Below are positions 4,150 through 10,335 of a stretch of 22,235 nucleotides of DNA, one piece after another. The position numbers were made by a program, and so were the translations under genes. The number at the start of each line of letters is the position of its first letter. Position 1 is the first letter of the stretch. The notes under the pieces are model-generated. The model saw only the letters and a program-made list of their open reading frames with translations. It made no database searches and was not told the DNA's origin. Origin of the DNA: a virus; the IMG/VR virus record IMGVR_UViG_3300031974_000724, positions 1 through 22,235 of that record, one strand, 5' to 3'.

Positions 4150-4317
4150 ATGGCATACAGACAGTGCGATAACTGTGGTTGTAAAATGACTGAGATATTA
4201 TTTTATGATCATAATGATGAAACAAAAAAACTTTACCATGAAGCATGGCAGTGTCCTTTCTGTCAGTTAAGGGTAGAGAAACCAAAGGAGAAAGCAAGTG
4301 AGCCTACTGGGGACTAG
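4150..4317 (+). CDS. 55-aa zinc-ribbon protein
   Basis: Small gene between the 84-aa protein and nrdB. The ATG at 4150 follows the previous stop by five bases. The product has two Cys knuckles: QCDNCGCKM near the N-terminus (C6, C9, C11) and QCPFCQL (C35, C38), a CxxC...CxxC zinc-ribbon arrangement with about 25 residues between knuckles, then a charged tail. Such ribbons usually bind nucleic acid or dock on a protein partner. Its last 20 bases overlap the start of nrdB, and the nrdB ribosome site (AAGGAG, 4285-4290) lies inside it, so the two are probably co-translated. Function beyond zinc binding is unknown. Confidence 0.7.
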   Translation: MAYRQCDNCGCKMTEILFYDHNDETKKLYHEAWQCPFCQLRVEKPKEKASEPTGD

Positions 4318-5266
4318 AGATTATTACAAACCTTTTGATTACCCTTGGATGTTTGATTACTACGTCCAACAGAATCAAATGATGTGGCTACCAGAAGATG
4401 TGCCACTACACAATGACGTTAAAGATTGGCAGGATATGTCTGATCAAGAGAAGAATCTTTTGACTCAGATCTTCAGGCTGTTCACCCAATCAGATGTGGA
4501 CGTTGCGTCTGGGTACATAGACAGATACATGAGGGTGTTCAAAAAGCCAGAGGCTAGGATGATGATGTCTTCCTTTGCCAACATGGAATCAATTCATCAA
4601 CACGCCTATAGCCTTTTGCTAGACACAGTAGGTATGCCAGAGATTGAGTACAAAGCTTTTGCGGAGTACGAGGCTATGGCTGACAAGCACGAGTATATTA
4701 GTAGCTCTCCCCTCAAGATAAAGGACAAGCACTCTATCGCTAAGAACCTAGCAATCTACTCAGGATTCACTGAGGGCTTGCAATTGTTCAGCAGTTTTGT
4801 TATACTATTAAACTTCCCACGCTTTGGTAAGATGAAGGGCATGGGACAGATTGTAACTTACAGTATTCGTGATGAGTCACTGCACGTTGAGGCAATGACA
4901 AAACTCTTCAGAGAGTTTATCAAAGAAAATGTAGATATCTGGACTGATGATTTCAAGAAAGAGATCTACTCTGTATGTAGAGAGATGGTGAAACTGGAGG
5001 ACAAGTTTCTTGACTTAGTGTTTGAGATGGGGGATATTGTGGGCTTGACTAAAGAAGAGATGAAGGAATACATTCGCTACATTGCTGACAGGAGGTTGTT
5101 GCAGTTGGGTCTAAAACCTAACTTTGAAGTTAGCGACAACCCACTGACTTGGTTGGATGATGTGCTTGGAGTCGAACATCAAAACTTTTTTGAAGGACGA
5201 TCCACTACATACATGAAGGCAGGTCTGAAAGGCAACATTGAGAATGTAAGTTTTGCCCATGTCTGA
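4298..5266 (+). CDS. nrdB: class I ribonucleoside-diphosphate reductase, beta subunit
   Basis: Radical-generating small subunit that pairs with NrdA. All six di-iron ligands align with E. coli NrdB at the expected spacing: D66, E97 and H100 (MESIH), E159 (GFTEG), E193 and H196 (DESLH). The radical tyrosine is Y104, four residues after H100 as in E. coli, so this is a Tyr-radical class I enzyme. At 322 aa it is slightly shorter than E. coli NrdB (376 aa). The start is GTG at 4298, seven bases after a good AAGGAG; this start is preferred because the protein then begins with the family-typical LLGTRDYYKPF. The C-terminus (TTYMKAGLKG...) would be the flexible tail that binds NrdA. Confidence 0.96.
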   Translation: MSLLGTRDYYKPFDYPWMFDYYVQQNQMMWLPEDVPLHNDVKDWQDMSDQEKNLLTQIFRLFTQSDVDVASGYIDRYMRVFKKPEARMMMSSFANMESIHQHAYSLLLDTVGMPEIEYKAFAEYEAMADKHEYISSSPLKIKDKHSIAKNLAIYSGFTEGLQLFSSFVILLNFPRFGKMKGMGQIVTYSIRDESLHVEAMTKLFREFIKENVDIWTDDFKKEIYSVCREMVKLEDKFLDLVFEMGDIVGLTKEEMKEYIRYIADRRLLQLGLKPNFEVSDNPLTWLDDVLGVEHQNFFEGRSTTYMKAGLKGNIENVSFAHV

Positions 5267-5990: not shown

Positions 5991-6182
5991 TTAAAACCTG
6001 TCTACTAGATAATCTACTGAGCAGGTGGGCTGTGAACGACAGCCTAGCCATTTCAGTTGAAGATTGTCTTGGTTGATGTAATTGAATGGTGGCTCGTCAT
6101 TAAACCAATCACCATCCGCTGCATTACAAGCTGTTAAAGTTCCTAAAAATATAATCGATAAAATTTCTTTAACGTATTTCAT
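5991..6182 (-). CDS. small lipoprotein (63 aa)
   Basis: The N-terminus MKYVKEILSIIFLGTLTAC is a bacterial lipoprotein signal: basic start, hydrophobic core and a lipobox LTAC ending at C19. Mature size would be about 45 residues, with Asn at +2, which is compatible with outer-membrane sorting. Two further Cys (C48, C54 in GCRSQPTCS) could form a disulfide in the periplasm. The gene overlaps the monooxygenase-like gene by 14 bases, so the two are probably translated together. Options are a small outer-membrane spanin-type lysis protein or an accessory lipoprotein for the exported haem/copper protein. It lacks the Pro-rich mature part common in Rz1, so I cannot choose. Confidence 0.75.
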   Translation of the reverse strand: MKYVKEILSIIFLGTLTACNAADGDWFNDEPPFNYINQDNLQLKWLGCRSQPTCSVDYLVDRF

Positions 6183-7467
6183 TTCTCTCGCTTAAGATCT
6201 CCTGATATTTGTCATCGTCAAGGTGTGTGACTGCGATCCAAGCGTGAGACATTTCATCACCAGTACGGCTTCCTCCATATACCCATTGATCAGGGTCAGG
6301 ATTGTTAGGATTGTCAGCGGTATTATCATACCATTGCTTAATTACTAGAACCTCCCCTGTAGCCAACACAGGAGCCTCTGAAGGGCTATAGATGTGGCTA
6401 TGATGCCATGTTGCACTCCAGTTAGATATTTGACTGACGGGCTTTGTGCGGCCTGTAAGCGGGTTAAATATCTCCAGAGAAGCGGCGTTCATACGGAGGT
6501 GACCGTGAGGTTGGAAGCTATCTATTCTGACAGGGTGATCAAAGCTATGAAAACCCTGTGTCATAGCGTAGCCGTGAGGTGGGATGATTAGATGCCCATT
6601 CTCATATCCCTCACGCAAAGGATATAGTCGCAAGTCCTGAAGGGATACGTCATTTTCCTCTGCATAGTTCTGTTCATGAAACCAAAGACCTATCTCTACT
6701 ACATTATCTTCGATCATGTCTCCTTCTGCTGTGGCTCCGACACCACCCGGAAACATATGAATGTCCCAACGAACTAGAGAGTTAGCAGGGAATGTACGGC
6801 ATACGCCTGAAGGCATGATCTCACCCCACTTACCCATAGCATACTCTGTCAACTGCCCGTACTGCTGTAGCTCTCCCTCGTCATCGTAGACATAAATGTC
6901 TGAGTTGGCATGGTGTACTACAGCGGCTGCGTCACCCTTTGGCTTGACTTGTACTGCCTTGATGCAGCGTGACTCAGCTAGTTGGGGATCGACAAACTCC
7001 TTACTCCAGAGATCATTGCCGTTGGCAGGGATATCATACGGAGAGGAAGGTATGATCAAATCAGGAGAACCAAACTCAGGCTCAAAGTTCCAAGACTCTA
7101 GGCTAGGAAGAACCGGAGGCGGTACTACACGATCTACATCCCCATAAGGAGAACCGGAGTTCACCCAGTTTACTATGGAATCTATCTCGTCCTGCTCTAA
7201 CCTCCAATCACCTTCTAGATTTTGAATACCGATATGTTGATCGTAGGCGTAAGGAGGCATCTCTCTGTTGGCTACCTTGTAAGATATCAGAGGACTCCAC
7301 GGACGTATTTGTTCGTAGTTCTCAAATGACATTGGGCCTATGCCACCTTCTCTGTGGCAGACAACACAGTTGTTGTTGATTATGGGAGCGACATCATCCA
7401 CGTATGTGATATCTTCAGCCATAACCATACCGCTACACAATGCAATAAACGGTGCTAGATATTTCAT
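6169..7467 (-). CDS. exported cytochrome c / copper type II (PHM-like) monooxygenase-family protein
   Basis: A 432-aa exported protein. The start is set at the ATG at 7467 because GGAG sits eight bases upstream and the product then begins with a clean signal peptide (MKYLAPFIALCSGMVMA, likely cut before EDI). A c-type haem site CVVCH (34-38) follows, with REMPPY at about 68-73 as likely Met ligand. The rest resembles bacterial copper ascorbate-dependent monooxygenases related to PHM: an HH pair (185-186), a WDIHMF His (237), HGH (321-323) and GDEMSHAW with Met 406, corresponding to the CuH and CuM ligands, plus a NTADNPNNPDPD stretch typical of the bacterial branch. Expected location is the periplasm, where haem would be attached by the host. 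The substrate is unknown. It is a rare gene type for a phage; rows I counted by hand are about 47-53% GC, against about 28-37% in two rows of the virion genes. Confidence 0.85.
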   Translation of the reverse strand: MKYLAPFIALCSGMVMAEDITYVDDVAPIINNNCVVCHREGGIGPMSFENYEQIRPWSPLISYKVANREMPPYAYDQHIGIQNLEGDWRLEQDEIDSIVNWVNSGSPYGDVDRVVPPPVLPSLESWNFEPEFGSPDLIIPSSPYDIPANGNDLWSKEFVDPQLAESRCIKAVQVKPKGDAAAVVHHANSDIYVYDDEGELQQYGQLTEYAMGKWGEIMPSGVCRTFPANSLVRWDIHMFPGGVGATAEGDMIEDNVVEIGLWFHEQNYAEENDVSLQDLRLYPLREGYENGHLIIPPHGYAMTQGFHSFDHPVRIDSFQPHGHLRMNAASLEIFNPLTGRTKPVSQISNWSATWHHSHIYSPSEAPVLATGEVLVIKQWYDNTADNPNNPDPDQWVYGGSRTGDEMSHAWIAVTHLDDDKYQEILSERNEIR

Positions 7468-7468
7468 A

Positions 7469-7837
7469 TTAGTAACTCCATACTGTAGGCCGTGGCCTTG
7501 CTGATGAATCTTCAAGATCATCTAAATGAATGAACCTACCAAGAGAGCCTTTCTGACTAACACCTATACCTGTGAAACCTGCCTGTAGTGCAGCGTCCAA
7601 AAGCATATGGGCCTTCTCTCCTTGTACCCCTATGTCTATAGCGTGTCCAGTAGAGTGCGCTCCGGGGCTACTCTTACGTGCTTCTATAGGATGCTCAGGG
7701 CAGCGGTAAGCACTGTTGACAGGAAAAGGAAAACCTAACTGCTCACGTAAGGCTTCTATCCTTATCATGAAATCCTTATCCATACCACTCTTACCGCAAT
7801 GGGTACATTTTAGTTCATCTTCTGTGAAGTATTTCAT
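7469..7837 (-). CDS. M15-family (M15_3) peptidoglycan peptidase, probable endolysin
   Basis: A 122-aa zinc peptidase of the DD-carboxypeptidase/L-Ala-D-Glu endopeptidase type that would cut peptide cross-links of host peptidoglycan during lysis. Zinc ligands are visible as H61 and D68 in GAHSTGHAIDIG and H104 in RFIHLDD, with the family SAYRCPEHP block before them (42-50) and RPTVWSY at the C-terminus. An N-terminal Cys pair (CTHCG, 11-15) is also present. There is no signal peptide, so release needs the holin encoded at 20565-20972. The ATG overlaps the stop of the 833-aa gene (ATGA), and the stop lies one base before the next gene's start. Confidence 0.92.
   Translation of the reverse strand: MKYFTEDELKCTHCGKSGMDKDFMIRIEALREQLGFPFPVNSAYRCPEHPIEARKSSPGAHSTGHAIDIGVQGEKAHMLLDAALQAGFTGIGVSQKGSLGRFIHLDDLEDSSARPRPTVWSY
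7476..7479 (-). promoter_or_regulatory. ribosome binding site deciding the monooxygenase start
   Basis: GGAG on the - strand, eight bases before the ATG at 7467 and inside the last codons of the M15 peptidase gene. It favours this ATG over an upstream in-frame start at 7521, which would put 18 extra residues ahead of the signal peptide. Confidence 0.6.
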
Positions 7838-10335
7838 GCTGCCCTCCCTCTAAGTCTACCTAAGACTCTGCCTCCGGTTGCATAGGGATATTTAGCTCTG
7901 TCCCCATACTTAGCGTTCTTAGCCAATACTAGTGGCCCTATCTGTATTACTTCATCTGCAAAATCTACGGGCTTCCCTGTAGCCCTGTCGTAAAAGTATG
8001 AGTGTCTTCGAGGATCAAATCCCACTTGTATCCACTCATCACTATCTATTGCTTCCAGAGCAAGAGCATAGTTTTCTCTAGCATCCCTATCAATATATTC
8101 CCCCATCATTTGTGCAAAAGGAGATTTAGCCCCACCTTCTGCTACACCTTGAGCCATTTCAGCAGTTGAGTATTTTGGTGTAGCACGTTTAGTAAAATCA
8201 ACATTCCTTAGTGATGCTGTGGCTTGATGTCCTACTGCCTTTTTACCAACGTGTATTGTAGGAACCCATGCAGAGTCTTCTGTTCTTAGATATGCGTTAA
8301 TATCTAATCTTAACCCTACCTCCTGACCTTCTTCAATTTGAGCATTTATCTTATCGCGTTGACCCGGACGTAAGGCCTTAAACATTGCGTCATCTGTTTC
8401 TGGAAGTGGTACTTTATCATATGGATAAATAGTGTTTAAAACAATCTTGTCGTATTCATCAGCAGTTATAAGTCCATCTTTTAAATCATCGTAAGCTTTT
8501 TTAACTTCAGGAATTGCTTCTTTCAGACTACCCTGCCTAATGTAAGGGGGCGGTTCTTCAAAAGAAGGTGAAGTTTTAGTGTCTCTCCATGCGTATACAT
8601 CATGTGGAAATGTTCTATCTTTAAAAGGATCGGTAATATCGTCGCCTCTAGGGCCAACGTCAACTACTCTCCTAGCCACTAGCACATGGTTTTTAGGAAG
8701 GCTTTGCGCCCTTCTATCAAACTCAAACATATCGAATCTTCGATACCCGTCTTTGTCTACAGTGACAGGAAACTCAACAATTTTTTCTGCAAAAACGTGC
8801 AGTGGGGTAATTGCTCCAGTATTAAATCCTTCTTCAAAGTCCGATACTCTAGGGCCAGAATAACTGGCAGCTACATTAGCAGATGGGGAAGCAAAACTAG
8901 CATAACCTTCTCTGGCTTTTCCTGACAAAGCACCTTCAGCAAACTCTCCATCAGAGCCAACTACCCCTCTATATAATACCAAGGGCGCACCACTCTTACC
9001 TTTTATTTTTTCTAGTCCTGCAACTTCTTCAGCAAACTCAGTAACAAACTGGTCATCTCTGAAGAGTATGTAGGAACTACCACCTGCTTGCTTTTCTGAA
9101 ACCCTCGCTAGTTCTCCTAAGTTCTTGTACTGGATGCTGTCAAATCCCAAGTCCTCAAGCATACGTCTTGTAATTGTATTTATTTGATGATCGTATGCAG
9201 CATTTAAAAGTTTACCTGCATTCAAATCTTTCTTTCTGAGGACAGAATCTATTTGAGTAGCCGCAGTGTCAACTATACTTGTGAACTGTTCAGGAGCTAT
9301 CTTAACCTGTGCCTCTAGCGCATCCACAAAAGACTGCGCCTGATCTGATAACCTCATAGTATTATCAGGATCATAGCCTCCCAAGAATTTCGCAGGGTTC
9401 CAGTTGATCATGTCAGTATCTAACACCAGAGGATTCTTTACGTTTATGAAACCCTCCCTTAGTGAAGGCGTAACACCAGTAGGTACACTCTGCATTAGCT
9501 CTGGCATTATAAAGTCTAAGACCTCATCAGGCACACCATCTTGAGACACAGCAACTCTAGCAGCCTGTTCAGTCATTCCCCTGTCCATATACATACGTGC
9601 GGCTACGCGCTCTACCATATTTTCTGAGAAAGGATATGCGCCTCTCATCAAAATAGTTTCAGCCTGTCCCTTAGTGCCAACGTGTAGCCCTAGCTCTCTG
9701 GGTAGTCTGACAGACAAAGGGTTATCATATCTTTCGGTTGAAAAGAAGCTACCGTTATACTGGGGCTTCTGCTCTACAGAATCTTTTAGAAACTCTTGCT
9801 TAGTTACAGAAGCTGCCGGAGGTGGGGAGCCTGACACTTTAGGGATACTTGTGAAGTACTCTTGAACTATGTCAACATCTTCTTCAGGTATACTATTTAT
9901 CTCATCATCAAGATCTTTAGATAACCTGTCACCTACTTCTTGTTTGGTTATGAAGTAAGTTTTATTAGGCTGCCTATATTCTACACGGTTACCATCGTTG
10001 TCTAAGCTAACCCTGCGTGAAGAATACTGCACATCTTCGGGGTCTACAAAGTTTTCCGGCTCGTTCGATCTAAACTCTAGCAGAGTACTGCGAGTGTCAT
10101 CGTCTATGTCAACTCTTGTAGTAGGACGTATATCATCTACTACATCATCAGCACTCCTAGTAAGTCTTTTTATTAACGTGACTAGTCCCGCTGCGGAAAA
10201 GCCCATGCGATCTTCTTCATCCACAAAAGCCCCACCTGCTTGCATATCATAGGGCAGGCCTGTCATTCTATCCACCCTTTCATCAGGCTCTTCGGGAGCT
10301 TGTGGTACGGATACTTTTTCGTAGTACTCTCTCAC
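7834..10335 (-). CDS. large virion-associated protein with two ART-like (polyvalent-protein) modules
   Basis: 833 aa. The centre carries two regions that look like ADP-ribosyltransferase domains of the polyvalent-protein type. Module 1 (about 216-430) has LHVGTKGQAE (H218), INVKNPLVLD (297-306), then LGFDSIQYKNLGE and SYILFRDDQF, the classic H...Y...E pattern and closing strand. Module 2 (about 452-590) has LVLYRGV, ASFASPSANVAASY, ITPLHVFAEKIVEFP and a closing DVYAW; Arg replaces the usual His. A third region (590-800) and the basic GGRV-containing C-terminus are not assigned. Such modules are known from phage proteins injected with DNA and act on host targets. Enzyme activity here is inferred from motifs only. 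The start is GTG, sharing one base with the stop of the 1243-aa gene (TAGTG), so the two are coupled. Confidence 0.8.
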   Translation of the reverse strand: MREYYEKVSVPQAPEEPDERVDRMTGLPYDMQAGGAFVDEEDRMGFSAAGLVTLIKRLTRSADDVVDDIRPTTRVDIDDDTRSTLLEFRSNEPENFVDPEDVQYSSRRVSLDNDGNRVEYRQPNKTYFITKQEVGDRLSKDLDDEINSIPEEDVDIVQEYFTSIPKVSGSPPPAASVTKQEFLKDSVEQKPQYNGSFFSTERYDNPLSVRLPRELGLHVGTKGQAETILMRGAYPFSENMVERVAARMYMDRGMTEQAARVAVSQDGVPDEVLDFIMPELMQSVPTGVTPSLREGFINVKNPLVLDTDMINWNPAKFLGGYDPDNTMRLSDQAQSFVDALEAQVKIAPEQFTSIVDTAATQIDSVLRKKDLNAGKLLNAAYDHQINTITRRMLEDLGFDSIQYKNLGELARVSEKQAGGSSYILFRDDQFVTEFAEEVAGLEKIKGKSGAPLVLYRGVVGSDGEFAEGALSGKAREGYASFASPSANVAASYSGPRVSDFEEGFNTGAITPLHVFAEKIVEFPVTVDKDGYRRFDMFEFDRRAQSLPKNHVLVARRVVDVGPRGDDITDPFKDRTFPHDVYAWRDTKTSPSFEEPPPYIRQGSLKEAIPEVKKAYDDLKDGLITADEYDKIVLNTIYPYDKVPLPETDDAMFKALRPGQRDKINAQIEEGQEVGLRLDINAYLRTEDSAWVPTIHVGKKAVGHQATASLRNVDFTKRATPKYSTAEMAQGVAEGGAKSPFAQMMGEYIDRDARENYALALEAIDSDEWIQVGFDPRRHSYFYDRATGKPVDFADEVIQIGPLVLAKNAKYGDRAKYPYATGGRVLGRLRGRAA

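Follow-up and report, generated by a model that had tools for sequence, protein, structure and literature searches.

A host-derived gene for a predicted haem c-containing, PHM-like bicopper monooxygenase in uncultured phages

The DNA analysed here, a linear IMG/VR virus record of 22,235 bases (the window), carries next to its endolysin gene an open reading frame (ORF) for a protein in which a c-type haem domain is joined to a bicopper domain resembling PHM and dopamine beta-hydroxylase (DBH). We consider it fairly probable that this is a host-derived auxiliary metabolic gene, coding for a periplasmic haem c-coupled bicopper monooxygenase that is expressed late in infection.

The gene is located on the minus strand, a detail not given in the preliminary description of this DNA, and runs from an ATG at position 7467 to a stop codon at 6169 (432 amino acids [aa]). 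An alternative in-frame start, the upstream ATG at 7521, would make a protein of 450 aa. The 432-aa form was favoured because its ATG is preceded at 8 nt by a GGAG Shine-Dalgarno site (7479 to 7476, minus strand, within the endolysin ORF) and because it begins with a predicted Sec signal peptide, MKYLAPFIALCSGMVMA (residues 1 to 17; 7417 to 7467, minus strand), which was read from the sequence and is matched by similar hydrophobic N termini in homologues. The preliminary description had placed the gene one base from the stop of an M15 endolysin, in overlap with a lipoprotein gene and within an operon of lysis and virion genes, all of which was confirmed on the sequence. The endolysin gene (7469 to 7837, minus strand; Pfam Peptidase_M15_3, E = 2e-12; PHROG 894, endolysin) is the immediate upstream neighbour, with a gap of one base between its stop at 7469 and the monooxygenase start. 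At its other end, the monooxygenase ORF overlaps by 14 nt that of a 63-aa lipoprotein (5991 to 6182, minus strand), assigned by alignment to a phage family with the signature CRSQPxC..L, and two further minus-strand ORFs of 60 and 109 aa (5987 to 5805 and 5805 to 5476) follow. Upstream on the minus strand are also genes for a tape-measure-like protein, a holin and two large proteins (833 and 1243 aa) that weakly resemble virion or lysis families; the 833-aa protein (7834 to 10335) weakly matched the ADP-ribosyltransferase domain of polyvalent proteins and an endolysin PHROG. The left part of the window is occupied by plus-strand genes for a Cas4-type exonuclease, an endonuclease, a nucleotide-kinase-like protein, NrdA and the ribonucleotide reductase small subunit NrdB (4298 to 5266), the last identified by reading the sequence. 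No promoter signal above chance was detected near the monooxygenase gene, and no Rfam RNA was found in the window.

The signal peptide and the CVVCH, MPPY, HH, HxH and DEM motifs were present exactly as previously described. The c-type haem domain (residues about 22 to 104; 7156 to 7404, minus strand) contains the haem site CVVCH (C34 to H38; 7354 to 7368, minus strand), whose CxxCH pattern is invariant, and the MPPY motif, in which M70 is the probable axial ligand. Pfam Cytochrom_C matched the window protein at E = 7e-4, 0.1 bit under the cut-off, and was found in 22 of 28 members (Cytochrome_CBB3 in 24 of 28). An exported CxxCH site within a cytochrome c-like domain is thus predicted, and the signal peptide supports the periplasmic export proposed before. 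The bicopper domain follows at residues about 132 to 420 (6208 to 7074, minus strand). Its predicted CuH ligands are H185 and H186 of the HH motif (6910 to 6915) and H237 of WDIHM (6757 to 6759), the third not having been named previously, and its predicted CuM ligands are H321 and H323 of HxH (6499 to 6507) and M406 of DEM (6250 to 6252; all minus strand). C34, C37, H38, M70 and all six copper ligands were invariant in 81 of 81 phage proteins of the same subfamily (subfamily A), and in bacterial homologues each was kept in 132 or 133 of 133 sequences (M406 in 132).

An AlphaFold model built from 28 sequences (pLDDT only 75) matched well only DBH and PHM (Foldseek E = 1e-10), with VIA Z scores of 15 to 18 versus 8.8 for the next, unrelated fold. 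The model predicts the two-domain PHM fold, and this structure prediction, which had been proposed as a check on both copper sites, supports together with the motifs the earlier view of a haem c domain followed by a PHM-like bicopper domain. Since one family profile (A1) gave no direct sequence link to PHM, only spurious SMC matches, a second profile (A6) was needed. A6, a profile of 14 family sequences that were mainly B-type and bacterial, matched DBH at E = 1.1e-7 and aligned HH with the DBH HH, the histidine corresponding to H237 with the HY motif and HxH with the HTH motif. The HH, H and HxH motifs are the established copper ligands of DBH and PHM. Both ligand sets are present, His, His, His for CuH and His-x-His plus Met for CuM, where the Met, outside the local DBH alignment, was placed only by the position of the PHM Met. 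The protein shares its fold, the order of these motifs and a Met in the expected place with PHM, DBH and tyramine beta-hydroxylase, which are type II ascorbate-dependent copper monooxygenases. However, it is about 11 to 14% identical to PHM and DBH, has an N-terminal haem c domain and an invariant WHHSH, and subfamily A gives no confident Pfam Cu2_monooxygenase match: in the window protein the copper region was called by neither Cu2_monooxygen nor Cu2_monoox_C, and Cu2_monoox_C weakly matched 6 of 28 aligned members. A search of NCBIfam returned nothing, and among the 50 viral structural matches listed from BFVD none had a TM-score (by query) above 0.25.

Five further histidines, H355, H356, H358, H408 and H415 (6223 to 6405), are likewise invariant among subfamily-A phage proteins, which suggests that the subfamily may hold an additional histidine metal site. 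Together with the haem c and copper sites, and with the cytochrome c and redoxin-cytochrome genes carried by some phages, these residues would suit a protein that handles electrons, copper or oxygen as a sink or reservoir and so protects the infected cell, monooxygenation being unimportant. We regard such a role as improbable, as the full catalytic ligand set is present at both copper sites and the gene is under strong purifying selection.

Periplasmic redox enzymes had been considered rare as viral auxiliary genes, an assessment that did not hold for this family: at least 249 stretches in IMG/VR encode relatives. In the best 80 of these, which were kept for study, the gene was full or nearly full length in all 80 viral contigs. 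By gene content, 37 of the 80 loci were podovirus-like, and in most of these the gene adjoins a lysozyme or M15 endolysin gene. Another 17 were T4-like, each with two or more marker genes (capsid, scaffold, tail-tube or similar) identified by reading. The gene thus occurs in two or more unrelated phage types. The remaining 26 loci were not typed on the stretch read, and a few of them may represent bacterial DNA filed in error. Subfamily B, with about 28% identity, is encoded in tandem at many of the T4-like and untyped loci, and some loci also have genes for a class-I cytochrome c of 104 aa, for a redoxin-cytochrome protein, so named from reading the sequence, and for a PHM-only protein. B-type proteins lack the five additional histidines. 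Subfamily A, the class-I cytochrome c, the redoxin-cytochrome protein and the PHM-only protein occur together in the T4-like cassettes L026 to L036 and L276, in which the redoxin part has no apparent CxxC. Neither the window protein nor the PHM-only protein had a tblastn match among isolated phages in INPHARED, and in the open-licence literature we found no report of a phage-borne PHM-like enzyme and no biochemical study of subfamily A.

NrdB served as an independent handle on related phages. All nine loci with NrdB at least 88% identical and enough downstream DNA carried the gene at the same site, a search at this locus in related contigs having been proposed as a check. Among the 51 loci with 2.5 kb or more downstream of NrdB, the gene was present in 14 and absent from 37. 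Two contigs (L176 and L186) showed a clean empty site, in which NrdB, a small ORF, the endolysin and the large virion gene follow each other with nothing between. A structural or virion component, which the preliminary description had raised as an option and which the location between virion and lysis genes and the beta-sandwich fold might suggest, is highly improbable. The protein has a signal peptide and catalytic ligands, is nested within bacterial enzymes and is lacking in relatives that have the same virion genes, and we saw no sign of a virion role. The bacterial origin of the gene could also point to an assembly chimera or to stray bacterial sequence in a viral contig, but the same gene order recurs in many independent contigs and the phage copies include a diverged phage-specific clade. 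Chimera or chance was ruled out by shared synteny and by the 80 independent viral contigs, many with the same neighbourhood, and we assign this explanation a negligible probability. Neither a chimeric segment at 6169 to 7467 nor consistent absence of the gene from homologous phages, either of which would have spoken against a genuine phage gene, was seen in these comparisons.

In a tree of 90 rows computed with a quick method, a phylogeny having been proposed earlier as a check, phage genes fell inside bacterial subfamily A at four or more positions. They formed two main clades, each mixing podovirus-like and other phages, and the presence of podovirus-like contigs in both suggests that one copy replaced another at that site. 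Bacterial homologues with 66 to 80% identity and the same domains and ligands came from assemblies labelled Pseudohongiella or SAR86/OM182 and from unnamed gammaproteobacterial ones; no curated family was found for them. Judged from these sequence relationships, the phage gene is derived from Pseudohongiella/OM182-type Gammaproteobacteria, and bacteria of this type are the putative phage hosts, an assignment based solely on this gene family. Of 59 genomes in the presumed host family, that of genome G001, 32 contained subfamily A, compared with 1 of 274 genomes sampled from its class, the one being G001 itself. The median dN/dS was 0.07 over 106 phage pairs, indicating strong purifying selection. 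The gene is thereby a host-derived gene in true phage genomes, dispensable among relatives and maintained by selection, as is characteristic of auxiliary genes.

The 13 host genomes examined (G001 to G013; 1.9 to 6.6 Mb) contained 13 to 40 family members each at E = 1e-10. In the commonest cluster, an MFS transporter, a redoxin-cytochrome-PHM-like fusion, a protein termed b1, one to four A copies and a cupin are encoded together, and in part of these loci the A copies are followed by gluconate-2-dehydrogenase subunit 3 and a GMC oxidoreductase. The fusion is divergent and has lost the HxH motif in two that were read. b1 is a 317-aa exported protein whose gene directly precedes the A genes in most of the host clusters (L082 to L155); it had no Pfam match, and its predicted fold was beta-rich with no useful structural match. 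At other host loci, copies adjoin PQQ, AMP-binding or molybdopterin (MoCo) enzymes. By their gene content, the host clusters look like modules for oxidation of small organic molecules. Whereas bacterial copies are found in such clusters, phage copies are single or form small cassettes surrounded by phage genes.

From this setting we infer how the enzyme might work. Sec would export it to the periplasm, where the host cytochrome c maturation (Ccm) system would attach haem at CVVCH and copper would be loaded. Electrons would reach CuH (H185, H186 and H237) via the haem and not from ascorbate, and CuM (H321, H323 and M406) would activate O2 and hydroxylate a small organic substrate. The host probably already oxidizes such compounds via its many related enzymes, clustered with the MFS transporter and with GMC, PQQ and other dehydrogenases, and the phage copy, expressed late with the lysis genes, would keep host electron and carbon flow running, much as suggested for phage pmoC. 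The enzyme thus probably boosts a putative substrate oxidation in the infected cell; for a gene that boosts metabolism, a late position linked to lysis is unexpected and counts against this reading.

Cyanophage psbA and similar auxiliary genes are host-derived, common to podovirus-like and T4-like phages and strongly conserved, features shared by the gene described here, although the chemistry differs. The closest precedent found is phage pmoC, a host-derived copper monooxygenase component for which a role in boosting host oxidation has been proposed (Chen et al. 2020, PMC7674155). In contrast to PmoC, which is one subunit of a membrane enzyme and needs host partners, the phage haem-copper enzyme is predicted to be soluble and complete in a single chain, to include a haem domain and to have a fold unrelated to that of PmoC. 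Host-derived copper monooxygenase genes were thus already known in phages for a methane enzyme subunit; the gene described here, present in many uncultured phages, is predicted to encode an entire, self-contained enzyme that differs in fold and has a haem of its own, and the Pfam, PHROGs and NCBIfam libraries that were tried did not detect it. Since the hosts have 13 to 40 related genes, the phage gene directs attention to an oxidation that matters enough to have been acquired by viruses on more than one occasion, and it makes the role of the host gene family a testable question. More tentatively, phages of Pseudohongiella/OM182-type bacteria may have repeatedly taken a complete haem-copper monooxygenase for O2-consuming oxidation in the dying cell, some T4-like phages together with another monooxygenase, a cytochrome c and a redoxin-cytochrome protein; combined with a possible additional metal site in subfamily A, this would amount to a widespread, overlooked class of viral oxidation modules.

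An active monooxygenase might instead act outside metabolism, either on the envelope or on peptides and small molecules in the periplasm or outside the cell, for example altering receptors or destroying toxic compounds. The late position beside endolysin or lysozyme genes, the activity of the closest solved structures on peptides and amines, and the frequent adjacency to a phage lipoprotein gene are consistent with this. Nevertheless, we consider it unlikely: the homologues occur in host clusters of catabolic appearance, evidence for PHM-type substrates is absent, and the lipoprotein is independent of the enzyme. A search with two subsets of the lipoprotein alignment gave only two weak, unconvincing matches in the 13 host genomes, and a dedicated partnership with the enzyme was ruled out because 34 of 62 lipoprotein loci had no such enzyme within the stretch read. 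Lipoproteins of this family are about 56 to 70 aa long, have a C-R-x-x-x-x-C near the end and are common to podovirus-like and T4-like contigs (L238 to L299); C19 (lipobox), C48, R49 and C54, numbered as in the lipoprotein of the window, are invariant.
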